A program made the translations under genes and the position numbers. Below, one piece after another: positions 5,518 through 15,142 of a DNA stretch of 64,000 nt. The notes under the pieces are model-generated. The model did not search any database and had not been told where the DNA came from. It was given only the letters and a program-made list of their open reading frames with translations. The DNA comes from an uncultured Pseudomonadota bacterium (GTDB lineage Bacteria > Bdellovibrionota_B > Oligoflexia > Oligoflexales > CAIYRB01). The stretch spans positions 1 to 64,000 of the forward strand of contig CAIYRB010000029.1 of assembly GCA_903928445.1 (NCBI GenBank), read 5' to 3'. Every line of letters begins with the position of its first letter. Positions within the stretch are counted from its first letter, which is position 1.

Positions 5518-6525
5518 TTGGGTGCCTCTTTGACAAAAGAACCTTTATATTTTTCTCTTGGAAGCCTGGTCCAACGTCACCGGCGCGAGCGGCAGATGAC
5601 TCAAGCAGCTTTGGCTGAGGCGGCAGGTCTGTCCGCGCCTACGATAGGGCTCATTGAACGCAACCGTGGGCAAATTGCGTCATTGTCACTGCTCCTAGAT
5701 GCGCTAGGCCTGGTCATAACTGGTCGTAATCTGTCTCCAAGTGGGCCTATCGGAGTGCAAATTGCTCATCTACGCCGCAGCCGAGGTCTATCGCAACGGG
5801 CGCTTGCGGAGTTGGTCAAGGTAACGCAACCAACCGTAATTTCTCTGGAACGGAATCCCTGCCGAGGACGGATTGAAACGTTAGACAGGGTCCTGCGCAA
5901 ACTTGGCGCCGGAGCTTTCCTTCATAAACAGGGCCAACCGACTGCGTTTTACGCCGGCGTCGGCAACTCAAGTGCGAATAACTCGTGGACCACGCCGCCC
6001 GAACTGTTGAATGCGTTATACGATATCTGGGAATTTGATCTCGACCCGTCATCGCCTGGCAAGACACGTCGTCACGTCAAGGCGCGCATGCATTACACTG
6101 CCCTTGATGATGGGTTGTCCTTGCCATGGGGTGATGAAAGTATTGCATGTAAATCTGGTGCATCAAATAGTGCAGGTAATTCAGTAATTTTCTGTAACCC
6201 GCCTTATGGCCGTGGATTGGCAAAATGGGTTGAAAAATGCCGTGCAGAAGTTGACGCTGGTCGTGCAAAAACTGTAGTAGCGTTAGTTCCGGCGCGGACC
6301 GACACTCTGTATTGGCATGAACATATCGCTGGTCGAGCAGCAATTTATTTTTTGCTTGGACGTCTTAAATTCGGAGGGCAAACCGACGACAAGAAAACAA
6401 ACGCGGCACCATTTCCGTCAGCACTAGTTATTTGGGGAGCTGAGCCGGAGGCCCTAGAAAAAATGTGTACCCTGGTTCCGGGGACGATGGTCCTCCCTAA
6501 GGTCAGTGAAAGACCGGCGGTATAA
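5518..6525 (+). CDS. Double XRE helix-turn-helix fused to a Dam-type N6-adenine DNA methyltransferase
   Basis: Residues about 15-68 and 78-135 form two XRE-like helix-turn-helix units (MTQAALAEAAGLSAPTIGLIERN and LSQRALAELVKVTQPTVISLERN; each quoted in part from the frame). From about 150 the protein matches the phage-type Dam family: NSWTTPPELLNALYDIWEFDLDP, then the catalytic NPPYG motif (near 235), and FLLGRLKFGG. It should bind a specific site and methylate adenine, acting as regulator and modifier of element DNA. The TTG at 5518 follows AGGA closely; a later TTG at 5530 is also possible. No restriction nuclease lies beside it. Confidence 0.75.
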   Translation: MGASLTKEPLYFSLGSLVQRHRRERQMTQAALAEAAGLSAPTIGLIERNRGQIASLSLLLDALGLVITGRNLSPSGPIGVQIAHLRRSRGLSQRALAELVKVTQPTVISLERNPCRGRIETLDRVLRKLGAGAFLHKQGQPTAFYAGVGNSSANNSWTTPPELLNALYDIWEFDLDPSSPGKTRRHVKARMHYTALDDGLSLPWGDESIACKSGASNSAGNSVIFCNPPYGRGLAKWVEKCRAEVDAGRAKTVVALVPARTDTLYWHEHIAGRAAIYFLLGRLKFGGQTDDKKTNAAPFPSALVIWGAEPEALEKMCTLVPGTMVLPKVSERPAV

Positions 6526-6596: not shown

Positions 6597-7517
6597 CTAA
6601 AAAAGCCAGTCCTTGGTGTTAACTCGTTCGTTCTGCCACTGCGTCACAGGATATTGAGTAACCACGGCTAATAGGCCTTCATGTTCGGTGGGCAGAAGCA
6701 AGATTCTGTCATCCAGCACTACGTGGGGCTTCCACTTGCCTTTTAGCGCGGCGGCCGTCGTCTCCAAGGACTGCGTATATAGGTGCACCCCGTAGAAATT
6801 AAGGTCAGGATTCTGAAAGAATGAGGCTTTAGGCGAGTTCGAACAAAATCTTTTAAAAGACGTGGCGAAAATGCGATGACATCCGAGCCAAATATCTGAA
6901 CCTTCACGCCTCACGAGGTCTCTAGGGAAATCGGCTATCAGATTAGTAGTGACCGCATCCAAGTCGTCACTATCGTACAGCAGACCAGCAACCGCAAAGA
7001 TGCCGTTCGCGCCGGTTTGTATTTCCACCTGGTCGGCAACTTTGCCTTGCAGATACTGGACGTAGAAGCTGCCCAGGCCGGATAAAGGTTTCTCTAGTTC
7101 GACGAACGACCATAGGTTTGGTGTATCCTCGCCTTTGTCCTCGGGGCGTTTGGACCAGACTGGCTTTACGGCGGTGCCTTGCGCAACCAGTGCAGTATGA
7201 ACAGCGTCTGCGTTCTTCACTCTAATACCCACGCCTTGCGCACAGGGCTGTTCTGTATATTTTTCCTCGCCTTTCGCCTGAGCTAGAGTGAAGGCGCCCC
7301 GGTCCTCAACGGTCAGAAACTCAATGTAGTCGCCGGCTCCCTTGGGCGAAAAATAAAGGAAGCCAGTCCGCAGGCCGGGTTGGTGGCGCATCGTTTGATC
7401 GTAGGGCGAGACCTTAAATCCAATTTCTTCATATGAAAGTAGCAGGTCACGCATCTCCTTGGAGGCGCCGAAAATAACATGATCAATACGGGCCTGCGCT
7501 TTCGAACTATTCACCAT
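6597..7517 (-). CDS. VOC-superfamily (glyoxalase-like) protein of the YcaO operon
   Basis: The start is the ATG at 7517, with AGGAG 7 bases upstream and one base after the stop of the regulator gene. The 306-residue protein begins with a VOC module (IDHVIFG... DYIEFLTVED), holding the His and Glu positions that bind metal in this fold. A second half ends LYTQS...LLLPTEHEGLLAVV. VOC proteins include lyases, dioxygenases and antibiotic-binding proteins. As the last gene of the lipopeptide/YcaO operon it could modify or bind the product, or give self-protection; this is inference. Confidence 0.6.
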   Translation of the reverse strand: MVNSSKAQARIDHVIFGASKEMRDLLLSYEEIGFKVSPYDQTMRHQPGLRTGFLYFSPKGAGDYIEFLTVEDRGAFTLAQAKGEEKYTEQPCAQGVGIRVKNADAVHTALVAQGTAVKPVWSKRPEDKGEDTPNLWSFVELEKPLSGLGSFYVQYLQGKVADQVEIQTGANGIFAVAGLLYDSDDLDAVTTNLIADFPRDLVRREGSDIWLGCHRIFATSFKRFCSNSPKASFFQNPDLNFYGVHLYTQSLETTAAALKGKWKPHVVLDDRILLLPTEHEGLLAVVTQYPVTQWQNERVNTKDWLF

Positions 7518-7518
7518 A

Positions 7519-9000
7519 TTAATTCTCCTCACTACCCGCTTTTAACCGGGAGATTCTTTGGGATACTGTGCTGCGGGCCACGCGTAAATGCTCAGATACC
7601 TCCCGCATAGACGTGTGTCTTTTCATCGCTTCCTGTAAAACTGCGTTCTCGATAGCTTCGACTACGTCGTTTAGTGGAAGGTCGCGTACAAGGGCATCGC
7701 GAAACATTTGCTCTGCTTTCGTAATGACGTCATTACTGGGTAAGATGGCCGCTGGCTTAGGAGCATATTTACCAGGCGCAAACATCGTCTTTAATTCAGG
7801 AAGGTCTTCCGCCCTGATTTCCTTTTCATCTCCCATTGCTTCAGTGACGAGGACATTTATAACCTTATTGAGCTGGCGAACGTTCCCTTGCCAATGATAT
7901 TGCCTACAGCGCTTCGTTAGGGATTCGAGTATTTCTGCGGCAACCTCGACGCCTTGGCGAGCAAGGGCCAACTCTAGAAGGAGCGGCAAGTCGTCCAACC
8001 GTTCTCGCAGTGGAGGCAGTGTAATGGTGAGCCCTGTAAGGCGGCTTTGCAGATCAAGTAGGAAGGCGCCTTTCTCTACCTCGTCGTCAAGGTCTTTTGT
8101 GCTCGCAACAATGACCTGAAAGTCGCTATAGATAGTTTGAGTCTCGCCGAGACGATTGTATGACCCGTCGTTCAAGACTCGAAGAAGCCTCTGCTGACAG
8201 TCAATAGTAAGGGCCTGAATCTCGTCGAGAAAAAGAAAACCGCCGTCTGCGTCGCCGACGAATCCAGCAGTCGTCTGGTCGGCGCCTGTAAAAGCACCTC
8301 GTCGGTGACCAAATAATGCCGACACCGCCGTATCGCCGGTCAAGTTGGCACAGTTGACCGCTACGAAAGGCACGGGTCCTTGGGCTTCATTGCGCAGTCG
8401 GTGGATTAACTTGGCAACTTCCTCTTTGCCGGTGCCCGTTTCGCCGCTGATAACAACTGGGATGGATGCGTTCAGCGAAGCTTTTCGCGCTCGGTCGCGG
8501 ATGGCTGTGGAAAGCACAAGGCCGTCGGGGCATTTTTTCAAAAGCGCAGGTGGTAGTAGTCGAGGGGACGACTGCCTTTTTGCCAGTGACCCAGTGCGGC
8601 GGCCTTTTTTTGCCACCTCTAAATGTATAAATAACTCAGCTTCAGTCAGAATCGGTTTACGAAATAAGTGTGCAGCCCCCGCGTTTATCACTCGGTTATA
8701 CGTGTCAATCTGAGGGTCCGAAGACATTGCCAACGGAACCGTCTCAGGGTGGTTTGTGCCCAGTTCCTTTAAGATTTCAATACCCTCAAAAGTATTCTGT
8801 CGCCCGGGACCGCTGAGATGAATGTCGGTAAGTACATACTGGTAGCTGACCTGCGATAGTTGAGCCATAGCCTTGTCGAGCCTATCCACTCCCTCCGCGA
8901 GTAGACCTGCACCTCGCGCCATGTCTAGGTAGCGATTGAGCTGCGAGATGTCGTCCTCGATAATCAGAATGTTTCGCTGTAGTTTGGAATTAGCTTTCAT
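7519..9000 (-). CDS. NtrC-family sigma54-dependent response regulator
   Basis: The start is the ATG at 9000 (GGAG 7 bases upstream), overlapping the kinase gene by 11 bases; 31 upstream in-frame codons lack support. The receiver has acidic residues E15, D16, D17, phospho-acceptor D59 (VLTDIHL) and a conserved Lys (FRKP). The AAA+ domain has GETGTGKEE (Walker A), GAFTGA (sigma54 contact) and FLFLDEIQ (Walker B). A Fis-type helix-turn-helix (SMREVSEHLRVARSTVSQRI) closes the protein. It should activate sigma54 promoters when phosphorylated by the adjacent kinase. A near-consensus sigma54 site lies upstream of its own operon at 13363-13378, implying positive autoregulation. Confidence 0.92.
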   Translation of the reverse strand: MKANSKLQRNILIIEDDISQLNRYLDMARGAGLLAEGVDRLDKAMAQLSQVSYQYVLTDIHLSGPGRQNTFEGIEILKELGTNHPETVPLAMSSDPQIDTYNRVINAGAAHLFRKPILTEAELFIHLEVAKKGRRTGSLAKRQSSPRLLPPALLKKCPDGLVLSTAIRDRARKASLNASIPVVISGETGTGKEEVAKLIHRLRNEAQGPVPFVAVNCANLTGDTAVSALFGHRRGAFTGADQTTAGFVGDADGGFLFLDEIQALTIDCQQRLLRVLNDGSYNRLGETQTIYSDFQVIVASTKDLDDEVEKGAFLLDLQSRLTGLTITLPPLRERLDDLPLLLELALARQGVEVAAEILESLTKRCRQYHWQGNVRQLNKVINVLVTEAMGDEKEIRAEDLPELKTMFAPGKYAPKPAAILPSNDVITKAEQMFRDALVRDLPLNDVVEAIENAVLQEAMKRHTSMREVSEHLRVARSTVSQRISRLKAGSEEN

Positions 9001-10492
9001 CCGTGCGCTCCTCTGATTGCAGTGACCTATAAATTGACAAAATGAGTTTCGTGGATTTTTCAAGAGTTGTAGTAGACTCGTGGAAAACGACACGCACGGA
9101 TTGTGCTAAATACTTGTCGGTAAATTCGTCGAGGTCAGAATAAACAAGGACCGGCATGGAGCCGATGGGATCATCTGTGACGACGGGAATGGCCAATTCA
9201 GAGAGTCTGGTCACGAGGTCTTGCTGGCGTGCTCGGTTTTGCAGCCCAACAAGGACCGTGCTCGGGCCGCGGGATGAACGCTTATGGAGAAGAGGCAGGC
9301 GTTTTGAGTCGGATATTGCCGGCGCATCATTAGTCATGGCTGCATTCGGGAAAAGCATAGTGAACTTGGTCCGTCCGGTCTCTCTTGCGTGTTGAACTTT
9401 GCCGCCGTGTGCCTCGACGATAGCCTTAACGTTATGCAAGCCGATGCCTGAGCCACCGGTCTTTCCATGCGTGGCACCTCGCTGGAAAAGTTTTGATAAA
9501 ACTTGCGCAGGGAGCCCCGGTCCATCATCACTAACGGCGATAGTTAGTTGCCCACCTTCTATCGAAGCCTCAATGACGATATCTTTGGCCCCTGCCTCGA
9601 TGGAGTTGCGCGCAAGATTAGTTATAGCCCGCTCCACTGCGACAGAGTCGAGGTAGACCTGGACGTCCACAGGGCCGTGATAAGTAATACCAACCTTATG
9701 GTCTGCGAATAATCGCTTCAAGTCTGCCGAGATAGTTGCGATGTCGAAGCGAGTGTCTTGTGGGGTTGTTATACTGCCCTGACCCTTGCCCATCCGCCCT
9801 AAAATGGTCCGGATAGTTGTCAGAGACCGATTCATTTGGTCTTTAGACTGCTGGAATTCCTGCCAGTTTCGAGATTGAGCTGCGAAATCGAAAGCAATCA
9901 GAGGATTTTTAAGGTCGTGGGCTAGATTTTGTGACATCTGCGCGACGGTGCGAATATGTTCAAGTTCTAAAGATTCAGACAAATCTAGCATCATTTTTCT
10001 CGATAAAAAACGAAAAAGGATAACTGCCACGATTCCCCATAATAAACATAGCCCCAAGGCTACGCCCATGTTCGCAAACCGGTCATATTTAAAAACGAGA
10101 ACTCCGAATGGAGCTTCGGTATCCTTAAATCTTATAGGCTCAATAATCGCGCCCTCAATGATATCGCTGCTTGTCTGCGAATCAGCACCAGGCAGTGAAA
10201 ATATGATTTGTTTAGATGAATCGATGAATTGAATTGAGCTAAAAATACTACCAATCATCGGCGTGCTGGCAAGCTCCGCCTCACGCACGTCTCCCATGAT
10301 GAGATAACGACGGACTTGAGGGACAAGTTGCTGAGCGGCCTGAAAACGAACCGCTCGCGTGGTAACCCCTGTTGCAAGTCCAACAATCAGTACAACCAAA
10401 GCAGTTAAGGCTGCTAGAATTCCTGCAAGACGACGCGTGTTTGGCAGAATTACCTTATTACCATCGAAACTCGCGTTACGCATGGGGTTCAT
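8990..10492 (-). CDS. Membrane sensor histidine kinase with C-terminal receiver-like domain
   Basis: Of 500 residues, about 22-46 and 146-166 form two membrane helices around a periplasmic sensor of about 100 residues. The dimerisation helix carries the phospho-His in NLAHDLKNPL. The ATPase domain has NLARNSIEAGA (N box), SDDGPGLP and GGSGIGLHNVKAIVEAHGG. The last 115 residues after the ATPase (STVLVGLQ...SLQSEE) look like a degenerate receiver without a clear acceptor Asp. Its start overlaps the YcaO stop (ATGA) and its end overlaps the regulator gene. It is the likely sensor for the lipopeptide or for its bound form with the solute-binding protein. Confidence 0.88.
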   Translation of the reverse strand: MNPMRNASFDGNKVILPNTRRLAGILAALTALVVLIVGLATGVTTRAVRFQAAQQLVPQVRRYLIMGDVREAELASTPMIGSIFSSIQFIDSSKQIIFSLPGADSQTSSDIIEGAIIEPIRFKDTEAPFGVLVFKYDRFANMGVALGLCLLWGIVAVILFRFLSRKMMLDLSESLELEHIRTVAQMSQNLAHDLKNPLIAFDFAAQSRNWQEFQQSKDQMNRSLTTIRTILGRMGKGQGSITTPQDTRFDIATISADLKRLFADHKVGITYHGPVDVQVYLDSVAVERAITNLARNSIEAGAKDIVIEASIEGGQLTIAVSDDGPGLPAQVLSKLFQRGATHGKTGGSGIGLHNVKAIVEAHGGKVQHARETGRTKFTMLFPNAAMTNDAPAISDSKRLPLLHKRSSRGPSTVLVGLQNRARQQDLVTRLSELAIPVVTDDPIGSMPVLVYSDLDEFTDKYLAQSVRVVFHESTTTLEKSTKLILSIYRSLQSEERTDES

Positions 10493-11478
10493 CCGAACAC
10501 ATGCGGTGCAGTGTCAATATCGTCCCATGAGAGACTTCGGCCCGCAAAGAGTTGTAGCCGTGAGATGTTCACCACATTAGGGGTGGTTCGCCCGAAAAAA
10601 GCACCTTGCAACTCTAAGCTATCGGCATAGCAAGCAACAAGAGGTGCATCTTGAACGTCTTGAGGAATACGAACGTGGTGAAAGCCGATACTATCAGTCG
10701 AACAAGCGTGGCCCTGTTGCTCGCCCTTCATGGCTGCGAAAAGAGTTCTGGCTGGCCCCGACGCCTCTATATCTAATGCCAAAGCATCATGGTCAGCTAC
10801 CGTGATAGTTGGCAAAGCGAGAAATTCAGTCTTAGTCAGTCTTTTGACCTCGCCACCTTCGATAACCCTGACTGAGCGCTTCATAGCTTCCAGCACAGCA
10901 TGTTCGATACTTCCACCAGCTTGCTCCTTACAGCCGAGACCGATCCTGATACCAAACGGGTGGCGCGCATGGGCACCATCGATGCTGCACACTATTCCTA
11001 CGAGCCCTTCTGGGGCAGTCATCCGGCCGAGATGCAATTCAACTCCAAAGGTCTCCAGCCGCTTTGATAGCTTACCAAGGTCAAACGTAATTGTCTGAAG
11101 CGCCTCATTAGACACAGCCGCGAACGGAATCTTTGTTAGGAAATGGCAAAAGAAGGCATCCCGCTCTATCAACTCCTCAAGAGCATTCTTCTGAGCGGCA
11201 GCCGGCAGCTCATGCACAGCCAGCCCGTTGGTATTGGCGCGTCCAGTTGAAGCGTGGATGCACCTCTCTAGAGCTTCAGCGCCTGCTTTTAAAAAGGCTT
11301 CATCTTCGCTAAGGCTTAGCCCGCTACCAGCGAACTGTTTGCCGCCGACTTCGATAGAGACGTGGAAATCATAATAGCCCGGTAGCCACTCATCAGGCCA
11401 AGTGTAGCGATGAGCTGATAGTTTTAATCTTTCAGCATTGGCTAGTAGCCAACTCGTTAGTCGCGATGTATGCGCCAT
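10489..11478 (-). CDS. YcaO-family ATP-dependent peptide-modifying enzyme
   Basis: The 329-residue protein has the hallmark YcaO blocks: GSGLSLSEDEAFLKAGAEAL followed by ERC (about 52-75), NALEELIERDAFFCHFL (about 98-114), GLGCKEQAGGSIEHAVLEAM (about 180-200). These blocks hold the Glu and Arg residues used for ATP and Mg binding. YcaO enzymes activate peptide backbone amides to make azolines, thioamides or amidines in RiPPs. It is shorter than usual and lacks the C-terminal PxPxP seen in many azoline-forming members. No E1-like or TfuA partner is next to it. It overlaps the solute-binding gene by 22 bases and the kinase by 4. The obvious substrate is the 66-residue lipoprotein of the same operon. 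Confidence 0.85.
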   Translation of the reverse strand: MAHTSRLTSWLLANAERLKLSAHRYTWPDEWLPGYYDFHVSIEVGGKQFAGSGLSLSEDEAFLKAGAEALERCIHASTGRANTNGLAVHELPAAAQKNALEELIERDAFFCHFLTKIPFAAVSNEALQTITFDLGKLSKRLETFGVELHLGRMTAPEGLVGIVCSIDGAHARHPFGIRIGLGCKEQAGGSIEHAVLEAMKRSVRVIEGGEVKRLTKTEFLALPTITVADHDALALDIEASGPARTLFAAMKGEQQGHACSTDSIGFHHVRIPQDVQDAPLVACYADSLELQGAFFGRTTPNVVNISRLQLFAGRSLSWDDIDTAPHVFG

Positions 11479-12980
11479 ATTGCGTTCGATGCAAAAATAG
11501 GTGAATGTTCAATTTTCCAGCCACGCCGAACCATGGATATTTGAGGCGTCCCGAGCAATGGTACGACCTTGCCACTTCGCAATGCGTTATAATGCAGGTC
11601 CCGAAGCATCTTGATTCTGATTTCTCGCTTTTCGGTGTCCATATATTTTCGAATCCAAGAGTTGCCTTCTGCGAAGGTCATGGGGTACTCGTTCATGCTG
11701 AAAGAGTAGGAAAGGAAGGATATATTTTCGTTCCAGAGAGCATCGGTGCCGATGATAAGCATTTGCGGGTCTTTGGCATCTATCTTTTTAGGATTTTTTT
11801 CTTGGCGTTCGTAATAAGCCAGCATGTCAGCTTCGACCTGTAGTCCAGGCAGCACATCATGCAGCAAATTTTGCGCCTCGCTAGCAAGTTGCGGAAAAGT
11901 GCTAATTTTGAGCCCTACTCCGGTTACCGGCTTTGGCGCTTTGGCGAAGAGTGCCCTGAGCGCGGTATGCTGGTCGGCCGTTAAGTTGCCGTCGCCTTGC
12001 TCGGCGAACCACTGCCGTGCTGGGACGTTTTGGCGTATGGGAGATACAGCCTTCGACCAGTACGTGTTTTGAATCACGCTACCAAGGCCAAGCCGTGTTG
12101 ACTCAGGCAGCTCTTTCATTCCTTTATCAGTAAAAAGTAGCATTATTTTAAAGAAGTTTTCGGTGATGTCTACCTGAGCGTCGCTGTGGGTCTTGACGTA
12201 TTCTGTGAGCAGGTGCCGTTGGTATATGTTCGAGGATGGGACAAAATCGGTCTCGTGGTCGATAAACTGCTTTAAAGAGCCAGGCATTTCCGGGGTGCTT
12301 TTTTGCTTATTGACACGAAATGCAACTGTTTGCGGAATGTCTTTCCGGTAATGCCAGTGATTCGGGTTAGCTTTCATAACGAAATCGCCATTGGGTAACA
12401 ACTTGCTGAGGTAATAGGGTCCACTGGTCTCGGCATATGACTTTATCTTAAGGGTCACGGGGTCAACAGTCGACCGTATAAGGACGCCGAAATCTATCGC
12501 CGTTAGCATCGGGACTAAGAACGTGTGTCCGAATTTAGGCCTGAAGACCAATTCGTTACCTGATACAGCTATACCGTCGCAGGGGTCTTCAACGCGGGTG
12601 AGCTTTTGGTCTGGGCATAGAATCTCACCAAGTCGACCATGGGTGTTACGGCTCAGGACGAGCAGTCGCTTCAAGGTGAACATGGCATCGTCGGCAGTTA
12701 TTTTCAGACCAGATGCTGTTTTAGCATTGTCGCGAATGTGGAGATGGAGCTCTTTACCGGTCCAAGTTAGGTTGTCGGCTAAAGCCGGCACCATCTGACC
12801 GTCAAGGTCTTCTTCAATCAAAGGGCTGAGCAGGTTCTCGAAGACGCCGTACTCGTGCGCAAGAGTGATAGCAGAAGGGTCTAAATCGCCGACGTCTCGC
12901 CACGGCACGGGGTGATTTATCGCGAATTCAACGCTCTCGGAGGGCGAGGCATTGATTTGCAGCGGCAGCAGCCCAAGCAA
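11457..12980 (-). CDS. Peptide-type extracellular solute-binding protein (SBP_bac_5-like), no permease nearby
   Basis: The protein resembles oligopeptide/dipeptide periplasmic binding proteins: FENLLSPLIEEDLDGQMVPALAD near the N-terminus, LHLHIRDNAK, SGPYYLSKLLPNGDFVMKANPNHW, and a C-terminal lobe ending MVRRGWKIEHSP. From the TTG at 12980 the signal peptide would be short. In-frame codons further upstream read SRTWLLILLLGLLPLQINA, a good signal, so initiation is probably upstream (to about 13037) at a non-ATG codon near the lipoprotein stop. It is tightly packed between the lipoprotein and YcaO genes. No ABC permease or ATPase is present, so a ligand-presenting role for the kinase is likelier than import. 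Confidence 0.8.
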   Translation of the reverse strand: MLGLLPLQINASPSESVEFAINHPVPWRDVGDLDPSAITLAHEYGVFENLLSPLIEEDLDGQMVPALADNLTWTGKELHLHIRDNAKTASGLKITADDAMFTLKRLLVLSRNTHGRLGEILCPDQKLTRVEDPCDGIAVSGNELVFRPKFGHTFLVPMLTAIDFGVLIRSTVDPVTLKIKSYAETSGPYYLSKLLPNGDFVMKANPNHWHYRKDIPQTVAFRVNKQKSTPEMPGSLKQFIDHETDFVPSSNIYQRHLLTEYVKTHSDAQVDITENFFKIMLLFTDKGMKELPESTRLGLGSVIQNTYWSKAVSPIRQNVPARQWFAEQGDGNLTADQHTALRALFAKAPKPVTGVGLKISTFPQLASEAQNLLHDVLPGLQVEADMLAYYERQEKNPKKIDAKDPQMLIIGTDALWNENISFLSYSFSMNEYPMTFAEGNSWIRKYMDTEKREIRIKMLRDLHYNALRSGKVVPLLGTPQISMVRRGWKIEHSPIFASNAIWRIHRD

Positions 12981-13039
12981 GAGTATGAGCAGCCATGTAC
13001 GACTGACTCGCGCTCTAGCATGGGCGGGGGAACGCAGAA

Positions 13040-13240
13040 TTAATTGCAGGCGAGACCGCCGCAGGGTGGAACTGCCGCTGAAGTGGTGTGCTCGATTTTC
13101 AGTCGTCCCATTTTTTCGAGTTGTGCTGATATCGACTCCTTCGCTTTTTGCGGAGTTTGAACTGCCCCTTTGTCGCCGCAGCCGGCCAACATAAGTGCGA
13201 CGGAACCAACCCCTAAAACCACCTTATTGACGACTTGCAT
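13040..13240 (-). CDS. 66-aa lipoprotein, candidate RiPP-type precursor for the YcaO enzyme
   Basis: ATG at 13240 follows GAGGAG at 7 bases. The N-terminus is a type II signal ending MLAGC, so Cys21 should be lipidated. The mature part has a Lys/Glu-rich helical stretch (KAKESISAQLEKMG) and a C-terminal tail HTTSAAVPPCGGLACN (51-66), rich in Thr, Ser and two Cys. Such a tail is a typical YcaO target: a leader-like helix, then a small heterocyclisable core. It is the first gene of the operon containing the YcaO enzyme, solute-binding protein and two-component system. An alternative is an unmodified small lipoprotein whose two Cys form a disulfide. Confidence 0.7.
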   Translation of the reverse strand: MQVVNKVVLGVGSVALMLAGCGDKGAVQTPQKAKESISAQLEKMGRLKIEHTTSAAVPPCGGLACN

Positions 13241-13275
13241 TGCCAGGCTCCTCTTCGGTTTAAAATACCATTAGT

Positions 13276-13304
13276 TTAGTACAGGAGTTTATTAGTAATG
13301 TCAA
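13276..13304 (-). promoter_or_regulatory. Possible sigma70-type promoter for the lipoprotein-YcaO operon
   Basis: On the minus strand TTGACA (13304-13299) is followed after 17 bases by TACTAA (13281-13276), preceded by TG. The -10 element is a weak match. It would start transcription about 30 bases before the lipoprotein ATG and could give basal expression beside the sigma54 promoter. Confidence 0.35.
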
Positions 13305-13362
13305 CATTGTTATTATTGTTTAAAATTGAGTTTTCTTCCGTTTCATGACCGTGACTTACCGA

Positions 13363-13378
13363 AGCAAATTTCGCGCCA
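13363..13378 (-). promoter_or_regulatory. Sigma54 (-24/-12) promoter of the lipoprotein-YcaO operon
   Basis: The minus strand reads TGGCGCGAAATTTGCT. This matches the sigma54 consensus TGGCACG-N4-TTGCW at 11 of 12 defined positions and keeps GG-N10-GC. Transcription would begin near 13351, about 110 bases before the lipoprotein ATG. The operon itself encodes a GAFTGA-type activator, which supports function. Confidence 0.75.
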
Positions 13379-13437
13379 TCGTGTCGGTCGTGAAAAAGCC
13401 TGTGCTTTCAGTGAAGATGTTTAGAGAGCTGGTAACG

Positions 13438-13463
13438 AAAAAGGCCAGTCCGGCCTGTTTTTT
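13438..13463. terminator. Bidirectional terminator between integrase and operon
   Basis: AGGCC (13442-13446) and GGCCT (13452-13456) form a short GC stem. A T-run follows on the plus strand, and A residues on the other side give TTTTT on the minus strand. On the minus strand it would stop integrase transcription before the operon promoters. Elsewhere in 13241-13623 I see no gene. Confidence 0.55.
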
Positions 13464-13623
13464 AGACGCTACCGACCATTATGGCGTAAATTCGGATAGT
13501 TATTGCTGGTTCATTTCTGATCCATGCGTCTGACTTGTCGCTTTTGCCCGCAGGTGTGCCGGTATGGCCCGCCGCCTAAAGCGGGCGCGGCAATCCGGCG
13601 TCATGGAAATCGATGGCCTAGCG

Positions 13624-14769
13624 CTAGCTGGCGGCCCTAGCACTGTTACCTTTGATGCTGCTGACCATCTTATCCATCGCGTCGTCGGTCAAAATGAAGC
13701 CGGTATAGTGCTTCTCGCAGACGGACACAGAGTCGCCGATGCAGCGGGCCACGTTATGTAAGCTGATGTTCTCTTCCAAAAGCCATATGGCAAAGCAGTG
13801 ACGCAGGTCGTGAGCGCACAGCCATTTGTCTCGGTTCTCTGGCGGGTTGTCCTTCCCACCGATTGGGAAGGACCGGCGACAGGCACTCTTGACGACCACT
13901 GACCACTGACGATTGCGAAGCTTGGTCTTGGCTGCCTCCGACAGCGCGTACCACTCGGTCAGTGCGGTCAAGCCCTCGTCAAAGACGTAGGTCTTGCGGG
14001 TCTTGCGGTTTTTAGTGCCGCGTTGCTCAAGATTGCGGCTTATTTGCCAGCGTACTAGTAGCGTCTGCCCTATAAGGTCCTCTTTTTTGGAGGCAAATAG
14101 CTCACCCGTACGCATGCCCATGTAAACGAGGCAGTCGAGTACCACGCGGTGCTCGTGCTTTTTTACTCTGCTACGCATCAGCAGATAGTCCGCACGGGAC
14201 AGGTAGGCTACCTTTGGTTCGTCCTCATGGTCCAAGACCAAGAGCTTAGCGTCTTCTTCGCGCTTGAAAAAGCGCAGGATAGTTCGCAGCCGCAGGATGA
14301 CCCGTCTTTGACTGTTCCCTCGCAGATTCCGACCTATCTGTCGCTGCATTTCGGGAATCGGCGCAGTCAGTAACGGTAACTGGCCCAACGCTTCAACGGC
14401 ACGCCGGTACTCGCAGAAGGCTGTGTTGGCGTCGATGTGCGGACGCTTAGTCAGGACGTACTTTTTCCAAAATTTGTCGAGGAGCTTCAAATTGTCCGAG
14501 TGAAAGACTGCTTCGCCCTCGCCCCGGTCATGCTTGGCTTCGGCGTAAAGAGCGGCCCGCAGTGCCTCGGCCTGCTTGGTGACCTCACTCAGCTTGTCCG
14601 GAGCCTCGGCGTAGGCTTTGTTCAGCGCATCAATGCGCTCATCCTTAACCTTGGCATAGCGGTAGCCGCATGCAGACTGAGCGTCAGGGGTGCGTTTCAA
14701 AAACTGGAACGTGCGTCGTCCGTCTTTTACGCTGGGTTTTTTTATGATGTAGGCGGGCTTCAAAGACAA
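13624..14769 (-). CDS. int: Tyrosine recombinase (integrase)
   Basis: The 381-residue protein has the catalytic set of tyrosine recombinases. The first Arg lies in GMRTGELFA, the HxxR box is HDLRHCF, and the nucleophile Tyr is in CEKHYTG, about 30 residues from the end. The N-terminal part resembles the SAM-like core-binding region of phage and ICE integrases. The start is probably the TTG at 14769, after GGAG. The gene lies 130 bases downstream of, and parallel to, a tRNA-Leu, the usual layout for elements using tRNA genes as attachment sites. It should excise and integrate the element spanning 1-15,100. Confidence 0.9.
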   Translation of the reverse strand: MSLKPAYIIKKPSVKDGRRTFQFLKRTPDAQSACGYRYAKVKDERIDALNKAYAEAPDKLSEVTKQAEALRAALYAEAKHDRGEGEAVFHSDNLKLLDKFWKKYVLTKRPHIDANTAFCEYRRAVEALGQLPLLTAPIPEMQRQIGRNLRGNSQRRVILRLRTILRFFKREEDAKLLVLDHEDEPKVAYLSRADYLLMRSRVKKHEHRVVLDCLVYMGMRTGELFASKKEDLIGQTLLVRWQISRNLEQRGTKNRKTRKTYVFDEGLTALTEWYALSEAAKTKLRNRQWSVVVKSACRRSFPIGGKDNPPENRDKWLCAHDLRHCFAIWLLEENISLHNVARCIGDSVSVCEKHYTGFILTDDAMDKMVSSIKGNSARAAS

Positions 14770-14899: not shown

Positions 14900-14986
14900 T
14901 GGTGGGGCTGAGAAGACTTGAACTTCCACAGGGTTACCCCCATTGGCTTCTGAGACCAACGTGTCTACCAATTTCACCACAGCCCC
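14900..14986 (-). tRNA. tRNA-Leu(CAG)
   Basis: The minus strand folds as an 87-base class II tRNA. The acceptor GGGGCTG/CAGCCCC is perfect and followed by ACCA. The D-arm is GTG...CAC, the anticodon stem TTGGT/GCCAA encloses the loop CTCAGAA (anticodon CAG), there is a long variable arm, and the T-arm GGAAG-TTCAAGT-CTTCT. It lies inside the element, 112 bases from a partial second tRNA-Leu with a different acceptor stem. Confidence 0.95.
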
Positions 14987-15098: not shown

Positions 15099-15142
15099 CT
15101 GGCTTCTGAGACCAGCGTGTCTACCAATTCCACCACGCTCGC
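15099..15142 (-). other. 5' half of a second tRNA-Leu(CAG): probable attachment-site junction
   Basis: The minus strand begins GCGAGCG (acceptor 5' strand), then a D-arm and the complete anticodon arm CTGGT-CTCAGAA-GCCAG. It then diverges, with no T-arm or matching acceptor 3' strand in the next 100 bases. The D-arm to anticodon-arm segment is nearly identical to the complete tRNA-Leu at 14900-14986. This is what remains when an element inserts by crossover in the anticodon arm. It marks the right boundary of the element. The region 14987-15287 holds nothing else recognisable. Confidence 0.7.

Follow-up and report, generated by a model that had tools for sequence, protein, structure and literature searches.

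The YcaO locus and its genes

The DNA analyzed here is a 64,000-nucleotide stretch (hereafter the window, G000:C29:1-64000) belonging to a draft genome of 4.85 Mb (G000), and the subject of this work is a module that spans positions 13378 to 7519 of its minus strand. In the direction of transcription, the module consists of a sigma54 site, a lipoprotein, an OppA-type solute-binding protein (SBP), a YcaO enzyme, a histidine kinase (HK) and an NtrC-type sigma54 activator (response regulator, RR) (Table 1). It appears to be a chemical signalling system not described before, and it travels as one cassette on mobile DNA in two phyla related to Bdellovibrio. An initial annotation of the window had described a set of six overlapping or nearly touching genes, the sixth encoding a VOC protein, behind a near-consensus sigma54 promoter and on a mobile element. 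All six genes are in place, with Pfam domains above cut-off, the promoter-like site lies 122 nt upstream of the lipoprotein ATG, and the element has a tyrosine integrase and an identifiable insertion site. The VOC gene does not belong to the set: neighbour clustering gave no recurrent cluster for it at any other module locus, and we consider its product as either a passenger or a local target, outside the conserved module.

Table 1. Coordinates and supporting matches of the module genes and of the landmarks of the surrounding element
Feature	Position in window	Strand	Supporting data
sigma54 (-24/-12) promoter-like site TGGCGCGAAATTTGCT	13363..13378	-	score 14.4/15.6
Precursor-like lipoprotein, 66 aa	13040..13240	-	lipobox LAGC, leader-like block ESISAQLEKMGRLK, tail PPCGGLACN
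OppA-type SBP	11457..13040	-	SBP_bac_5 43.8 bits (Pfam, above cut-off)
YcaO enzyme, 329 aa	10489..11478	-	Pfam YcaO 44.7 bits (cut-off 25.7)
Sensor HK	8990..10492	-	HATPase_c 73.3 bits, HisKA; two transmembrane helices around a ~100 aa periplasmic loop; HDLKNP box
NtrC-type RR	7519..9000	-	Sigma54_activat 162.3 bits, Response_reg 35.0 bits; receiver domain, GAFTGA loop
VOC protein	6597..7532	-	Glyoxalase_3 35.1 bits (above cut-off); overlaps RR gene
Tyrosine integrase	13624..14769	-	Phage_integrase 30.5 bits; phrog_1 integrase 5.5e-18
Element-borne tRNA-Leu(CAG), replaces the interrupted chromosomal copy	14900..14986	-	comparison with intact tRNA-Leu of relative G016
att core at chromosome/element junction, in interrupted chromosomal tRNA-Leu	15099..15127	.	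G016 homology begins at 15099

The start of the SBP gene deserves a comment. The TTG at 12980 chosen by the ORF callers cuts off the signal peptide; upstream, immediately past the stop codon of the lipoprotein, the frame goes on as RARVSRTWLLILLLGLLPLQINA and encodes a normal signal peptide. Since this extension contains no ATG, GTG or TTG, translation of the SBP is likely to start at a CTG or ATT.

The window enzyme belongs to the YcaO superfamily by its domain score, its conserved glutamates and its fold. The residues of the ATP/Mg site (E68, E71, R72, E102, E105, R106 and E197) are all present, and they are conserved in 94-100% of 90 YcaO homologues. Its AlphaFold2 (AF2) model (pLDDT 96.6) matched in the PDB the nucleotide-bound YcaO (6ci7/6cib, with AMPPCP), a LynD-type heterocyclase (4v1v), the TruD type and McbD (6gos), and MusD was among the sequence and fold matches. 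It is not equivalent to the SagD family (TIGR03604, 45.9 bits against a cut-off of 219.25). The protein ends in ...PHVFG, and about half of the YcaOs found in modules end in PHPxx, which resembles the PxPxP C-terminus described for azoline-forming YcaOs (PMC12338566).

Conservation of the gene set

We used YcaO similarity alone as bait and read the neighbourhoods afterwards, in 427 genomes of two phyla (58 of the host phylum and 369 of the phylum labelled Bdellovibrionota, which includes locus L008), plus one scan of close relatives beyond them. YcaO relatives were present in 19 of the 58 genomes and in 96 of the 369, and about 105 YcaO loci were retrieved, many from draft genomes with short contigs. 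Neighbours were labelled with profiles made from the window proteins; these profiles were grown iteratively, so very divergent partners may have been missed. The relatives of the host include a Silvanigrella metagenome-assembled genome (L010, the same sequence as G049:C77) of the same class, which places the host in the Oligoflexia-type lineage.

Modules were found at 95 loci in the two phyla, 92 with an SBP, 92 with an HK and 89 with both; at each of the six loci lacking one of them the YcaO lies at a contig end. A contig break splits one G000 module, which has probably entered the count twice (L007/L059). The initial annotation would have been refuted had lipoprotein, YcaO and SBP failed to co-occur in other genomes; the set is conserved well beyond the window. 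In 49 of the 95 modules, a sigma54 RR of full length is encoded no farther than 6 kb away. The SBP, YcaO and HK frames overlap or touch: the gap between SBP and YcaO is at most 10 nt in 72 of 72 measured cases (median overlap 22 nt), and that between YcaO and HK in 65 of 70. There are two main gene orders, (RR-)precursor-SBP-YcaO-HK(-RR) and YcaO-precursor-SBP-HK-RR. By these counts the arrangement is far beyond chance. Neighbour clustering revealed no other recurrent neighbour beside the modules except type IV secretion systems (T4SS). Pairs of SBP and HK without an adjoining YcaO occur at L060:11439-15586 and at L188:2693-5533 and 10572-13535, and are possibly receiver-only (eavesdropping) copies.

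Candidate precursors and receptors

In almost all modules, a short open reading frame (ORF) with an export signal immediately precedes the SBP. We called precursors heuristically, by a signal-like start and a position before the SBP, and excluded a handful of evident miscalls (L060, L116, L127, L141, L188). The exported ORF ends between -40 and +25 nt from the SBP start in 66 of 80 cases, and L008 has two such ORFs in tandem. The sequences are highly divergent, with a recurring layout in which a helical block (for example IVRELERRGNIRDV, EELRREGII or SAQLEKMGRLK) is followed, after 8-15 residues, by a near-terminal Cys (as in GGTICF, SSICY, GVICVDPVK, GNPTCWTK and TGTSCFGGGRTNM). The block and Cys tail of the window lipoprotein have homologues in G000:C114 (L006) and in G014 (L044).

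A Cys occurs in the last 15 residues of 44 of the 57 non-redundant precursors, against 12.5% expected from their own composition (p 7e-29). Taking all precursors, 64 of 80 bear such a tail; among 200 other small exported ORFs of the same DNA, used as controls, the share is 18.5% (p 5e-22). The dN/dS values of 0.05-0.33 in the measurable pairs reveal purifying selection and hence real genes. The initial annotation looked to lipoproteins with a conserved Cys/Ser/Thr tail beside YcaO genes; a lipobox is found in only 7 of the 80, mostly in the host phylum, and the remainder have plain Sec-type signals and look like substrates of signal peptidase I.

The AF2 model of the window SBP (pLDDT 91.9) has OppA as its top PDB match (1b52, E 1.9e-25), and its predicted fold is that of a broad oligopeptide receptor. 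In Opp/Dpp nutrient uptake, SBP_bac_5 proteins come with permease and ATPase genes. The module SBPs do not follow this pattern, and no permease motif was found near any module. Two ordinary SBPs of G000 (contigs C121 and C149) do adjoin ABC permeases. Among the HKs with a recognised H-box, 52 of 55 have two transmembrane helices, and the loop measures about 101 aa.

Putative control by sigma54

Sites scoring at least 13 of 15.6, whose background in this material is 0.03 per 300 nt, head 28 of 60 operons, against about 2 expected. They occur in 11 of the 32 operons that begin with the precursor, in 10 of the 20 that begin with the RR and in 7 of the 8 that begin with the YcaO, and are perfect at several loci (including L005, L007, L099 and L107). 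The GAFTGA loop is kept in 43 of 49 RRs of the family and G000 encodes rpoN. With these three lines of evidence, activation of the module by itself through sigma54, as suggested for the window by the initial annotation, is well supported at the level of sequence. Strong sites divergent from the module (L107:11600-11615 and L111:11078-11093) precede a conserved small protein without Pfam match (cluster L099:11533, L105:176), which is likely a second target gene.

Association with conjugative elements

The genomic settings of the family go beyond what the single window had suggested. In Bdellovibrionota, 17 modules adjoin virB2-virB3-virB4 of conjugative type IV secretion, and where the flanks could be read, virB6, virB9/CagX, virB10/TrbI, TraD and a serine or tyrosine recombinase lie farther out. 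At loci such as L154, L161 and L164, the T4SS, the coupling protein and a recombinase are found together, as in an integrative conjugative element. The modules adjoining T4SS occupy separate clades of the YcaO phylogeny, a quick tree with many weak forks, and none of 10 non-module YcaOs has a VirB4 nearby. At L121, L126, L129, L138, L139, L143 and L176, the transfer operon opens, before virB2, with genes for small Zn-ribbon proteins.

The genome of the window has a fifth, divergent module on contig C137 (L206:1629-7566, L204), with a lipoprotein lacking a Cys tail, an SBP, a YcaO-like protein (3e-8 with the YcaO profile, no Pfam match), an HK and an RR. It stands back to back with a complete conjugation locus (TrwC relaxase, TraC, TraD), toward which a sigma54 site with a score of 14.6 is directed. 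In G014, of the same genus as the host, the module has a ParA-type gene as its neighbour, and the contig is plasmid-like. Finally, a cassette of 5.7-7.5 kb, about 90-93% identical, occurs in four species and at least three unrelated surroundings (L177, L180, L182, L175), once beside a Type III restriction-modification system and once beside HmaAB defence genes. From this comparison, the cassette has evidently moved as a unit into unrelated surroundings.

Comparison with known systems

We found no description of a matching system in full-text searches, which cover few subscription papers; the initial annotation likewise knew of no described pathway with this exact set. A paper on Bacteroidales YcaO enzymes in which pheromones are mentioned (PMC10352776) was ruled out as a match, since its clusters are of a different type, with radical SAM (rSAM) enzymes and peptidase-containing transporters (PCAT). 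Judged on gene content, no described family has the module as a member; it departs on the features compared both from thiazole/oxazole-modified microcins or linear azole-containing peptides (TOMM/LAP) and from the PrgZ pathway.

With TOMM/LAP clusters and those with a stand-alone YcaO (SagD type, bottromycin), the module shares a YcaO with conserved ATP site and a short precursor with a block and a Cys tail, that is, a potential Cys/Ser/Thr core. Clusters in which the YcaO stands alone, without C protein, are exemplified by bottromycin (PMC4603692). The module differs in that its YcaO is single-domain, with no fused or recurrently adjacent C protein (E1-like partner or RiPP recognition element), and in lacking dehydrogenase, ABC exporter and leader protease; its precursor has a Sec or lipoprotein signal instead, and it constantly includes an SBP and HK and often a sigma54 RR. 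An ordinary TOMM-like arrangement, a non-module YcaO behind a protein ending in NCSSYCDCS, is present at L117:6055-7032 as a contrast case.

The closest functional analogy seems to lie with peptide pheromones, in particular those of enterococci. Conjugation of pCF10 is under the control of short peptides, with the plasmid-encoded OppA-type protein PrgZ as receptor (PMC5552905). The pCF10 system (cCF10/iCF10, PrgZ, PrgX) resembles the module in encoding an OppA-type SBP on elements with conjugation genes. However, PrgZ feeds the Opp permease and the intracellular repressor PrgX, neither of which has a counterpart in the module, where an HK and a sigma54 RR are found; the module also adds a YcaO and a Cys-tailed exported precursor, and its hosts are Gram-negative. 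In systems of the LuxP/LuxQ type, a periplasmic binding protein assists two-component sensing and is likewise encoded with the sensor kinase and without permease, whereas the module SBP is of family 5 (OppA fold) and comes with a self-encoded peptide precursor, a YcaO and a sigma54 output. A self-encoded exported peptide also controls the integrative element ICEBs1 (RapI-PhrI), but the module has a modification enzyme and a two-component output in place of a Rap/Rgg-type intracellular receptor.

A putative pheromone circuit and its alternatives

The genes place an exported candidate signal, a candidate receptor and a regulator in one operon, as in quorum-sensing and pheromone systems, and the sigma54 sites at the operon heads fit signal-dependent self-induction. 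We therefore favour, with reasonable but far from full confidence, a general scheme in which the module is a circuit for a YcaO-modified peptide autoinducer carried by mobile elements. The short precursor would start with a Sec or lipoprotein signal, continue with a helical block for recognition (of Lxx(x)G type) and end in the Cys tail. Before the peptide is exported, or while it is, the cytoplasmic YcaO would modify this tail at the expense of ATP. The most likely product would be a thiazoline formed from the conserved Cys, an assignment to which we give slightly less than an even chance. The exported peptide, or its processed tail, would be captured in the periplasm by the SBP, which once loaded would act on the periplasmic loop of the HK; the latter would phosphorylate the RR, and this would fire the sigma54 promoter of its own operon in a positive feedback. 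The RR would probably also drive genes of the host element, such as a conjugation operon. We infer each biochemical step, namely tail modification, release, binding by the SBP, signalling from SBP to HK and the targets, from the genes and their arrangement.

Several observations weigh against this scheme. No peptidase or exporter recurs beside the modules, so the release of a diffusible peptide is left unexplained, most of all for lipid-anchored precursors. The Cys is missing from the last 15 residues of 16 of the 80 precursors (from the last 20 in 14 cases), and three of the five precursors of G000 are among those without it. The azoline-type C-terminus is absent from half of the YcaOs, mainly short ones found on conjugative elements, and the chemistry may vary for that reason; it is also uncertain because the recurrent neighbours of the modules include neither a canonical C/E1-like partner nor a TfuA or dehydrogenase. 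Regarding conjugation, strong sigma54 sites are not enriched upstream of virB2 (1 against 4.3 expected), which leaves control of virB2 from such sites unsupported. Before the transfer operon there are only weak sigma54-like sites, consistently placed at -44 to -87 from its first gene at seven loci of one clade; picked out post hoc, they are no more than suggestive.

The SBP and HK might instead sense outside peptides, released for example by lysed prey or by recipients, with the YcaO-modified protein as an internal brake or co-ligand that holds the HK off until displaced. The host lineages include predators, the SBP fold is that of a broad receptor, and the lipid-anchored precursors are not obviously diffusible. 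Nevertheless, the cistronic coupling of precursor and SBP and the conserved block with its variable tail evoke a private ligand, and nothing specific to prey was seen at the modules, which makes this explanation unlikely. It is quite unlikely, in our view, that the YcaO leaves the peptide Cys alone and acts on the SBP or HK, or as an ATP-dependent peptidase/maturase, as MusD reportedly does. The match to MusD, the Cys-less precursors and the short YcaOs would fit such a role; the very strong enrichment of Cys tails and the frequent PHPxx end speak for an action on the peptide.

Catalogued YcaO clusters largely serve bioactive ribosomally synthesised and post-translationally modified peptides (RiPPs) (PMC4603692), and a variable tail behind a conserved block resembles a leader and core, so that one may think of a self-regulated bacteriocin or toxin with the SBP in immunity or uptake. 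This is very unlikely given that the surroundings of the modules show no recurrent ABC exporter, leader protease, immunity gene or additional modifying enzyme, that the precursor bears a Sec signal instead, and that an HK is a constant partner and a sigma54 RR a frequent one. A chance or historical clustering of unrelated genes, to which the further unrelated genes on the window element might point, can be ruled out by the conservation over 95 loci: the same set recurs in 89 of them with overlapping start and stop codons, in two gene orders and several YcaO clades, and the near-identical cassette was relocated as a unit.

If the autoinducer scheme is correct, the module might tentatively be regarded as a new class, a Gram-negative, Sec-exported and YcaO-modified (azoline, thioamide or amidine) pheromone with its own SBP, HK and sigma54 RR, with which conjugative and other mobile elements would detect carriers and set the timing of their transfer or of cargo expression; we put this slightly below the thiazoline assignment. 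It would join RiPP chemistry, mostly known from antimicrobials, with the control of gene transfer, provide Gram-negative bacteria with a peptide signal of YcaO chemistry for self-sensing, and name the receptor, kinase and promoter of that signal in one step. It would also offer a handle on the transfer decisions of mobile elements in Bdellovibrio-like and Oligoflexia bacteria. With many natural pairs of precursor and SBP available, the specificity of the signal is directly testable.

The mobile element of the window

The window module rides an element inserted in tRNA-Leu(CAG). The empty site is represented by the relative G016, which has an intact tRNA-Leu and whose homology with the window starts in the middle of this gene. 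There is no att repeat within the window; the second junction is on another contig (G000:C207:7120-7181), where the missing 3' half of the tRNA and the same 29-base core are found, and its outer side matches G016 at 95%. The integrase and att sites are thus in view and no T4SS was seen on the element, part of which lies in an assembly gap. No relatives were found in the plasmid collection or in viral contigs. The GC content of the module is 0.50-0.52, lower than the approximate 0.54-0.62 of the 40 kb that adjoin it on the right.

Next to the module, on the plus strand (5518-6525), a gene encodes two helix-turn-helix domains fused to a Dam-type N6-adenine methylase. Another plus-strand gene (49-1575) encodes a 508-aa protein with an HQHWH motif that resembles rolling-circle replication initiators and has no Pfam or PHROG match above cut-off. 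A phage origin of the element was rejected, as neither this rep-like gene nor the ATPase-like genes have a PHROG match. At the contig end, positions 1-125 contain four copies of a 25-bp tandem repeat, which is probably the point where the assembly of the element broke.

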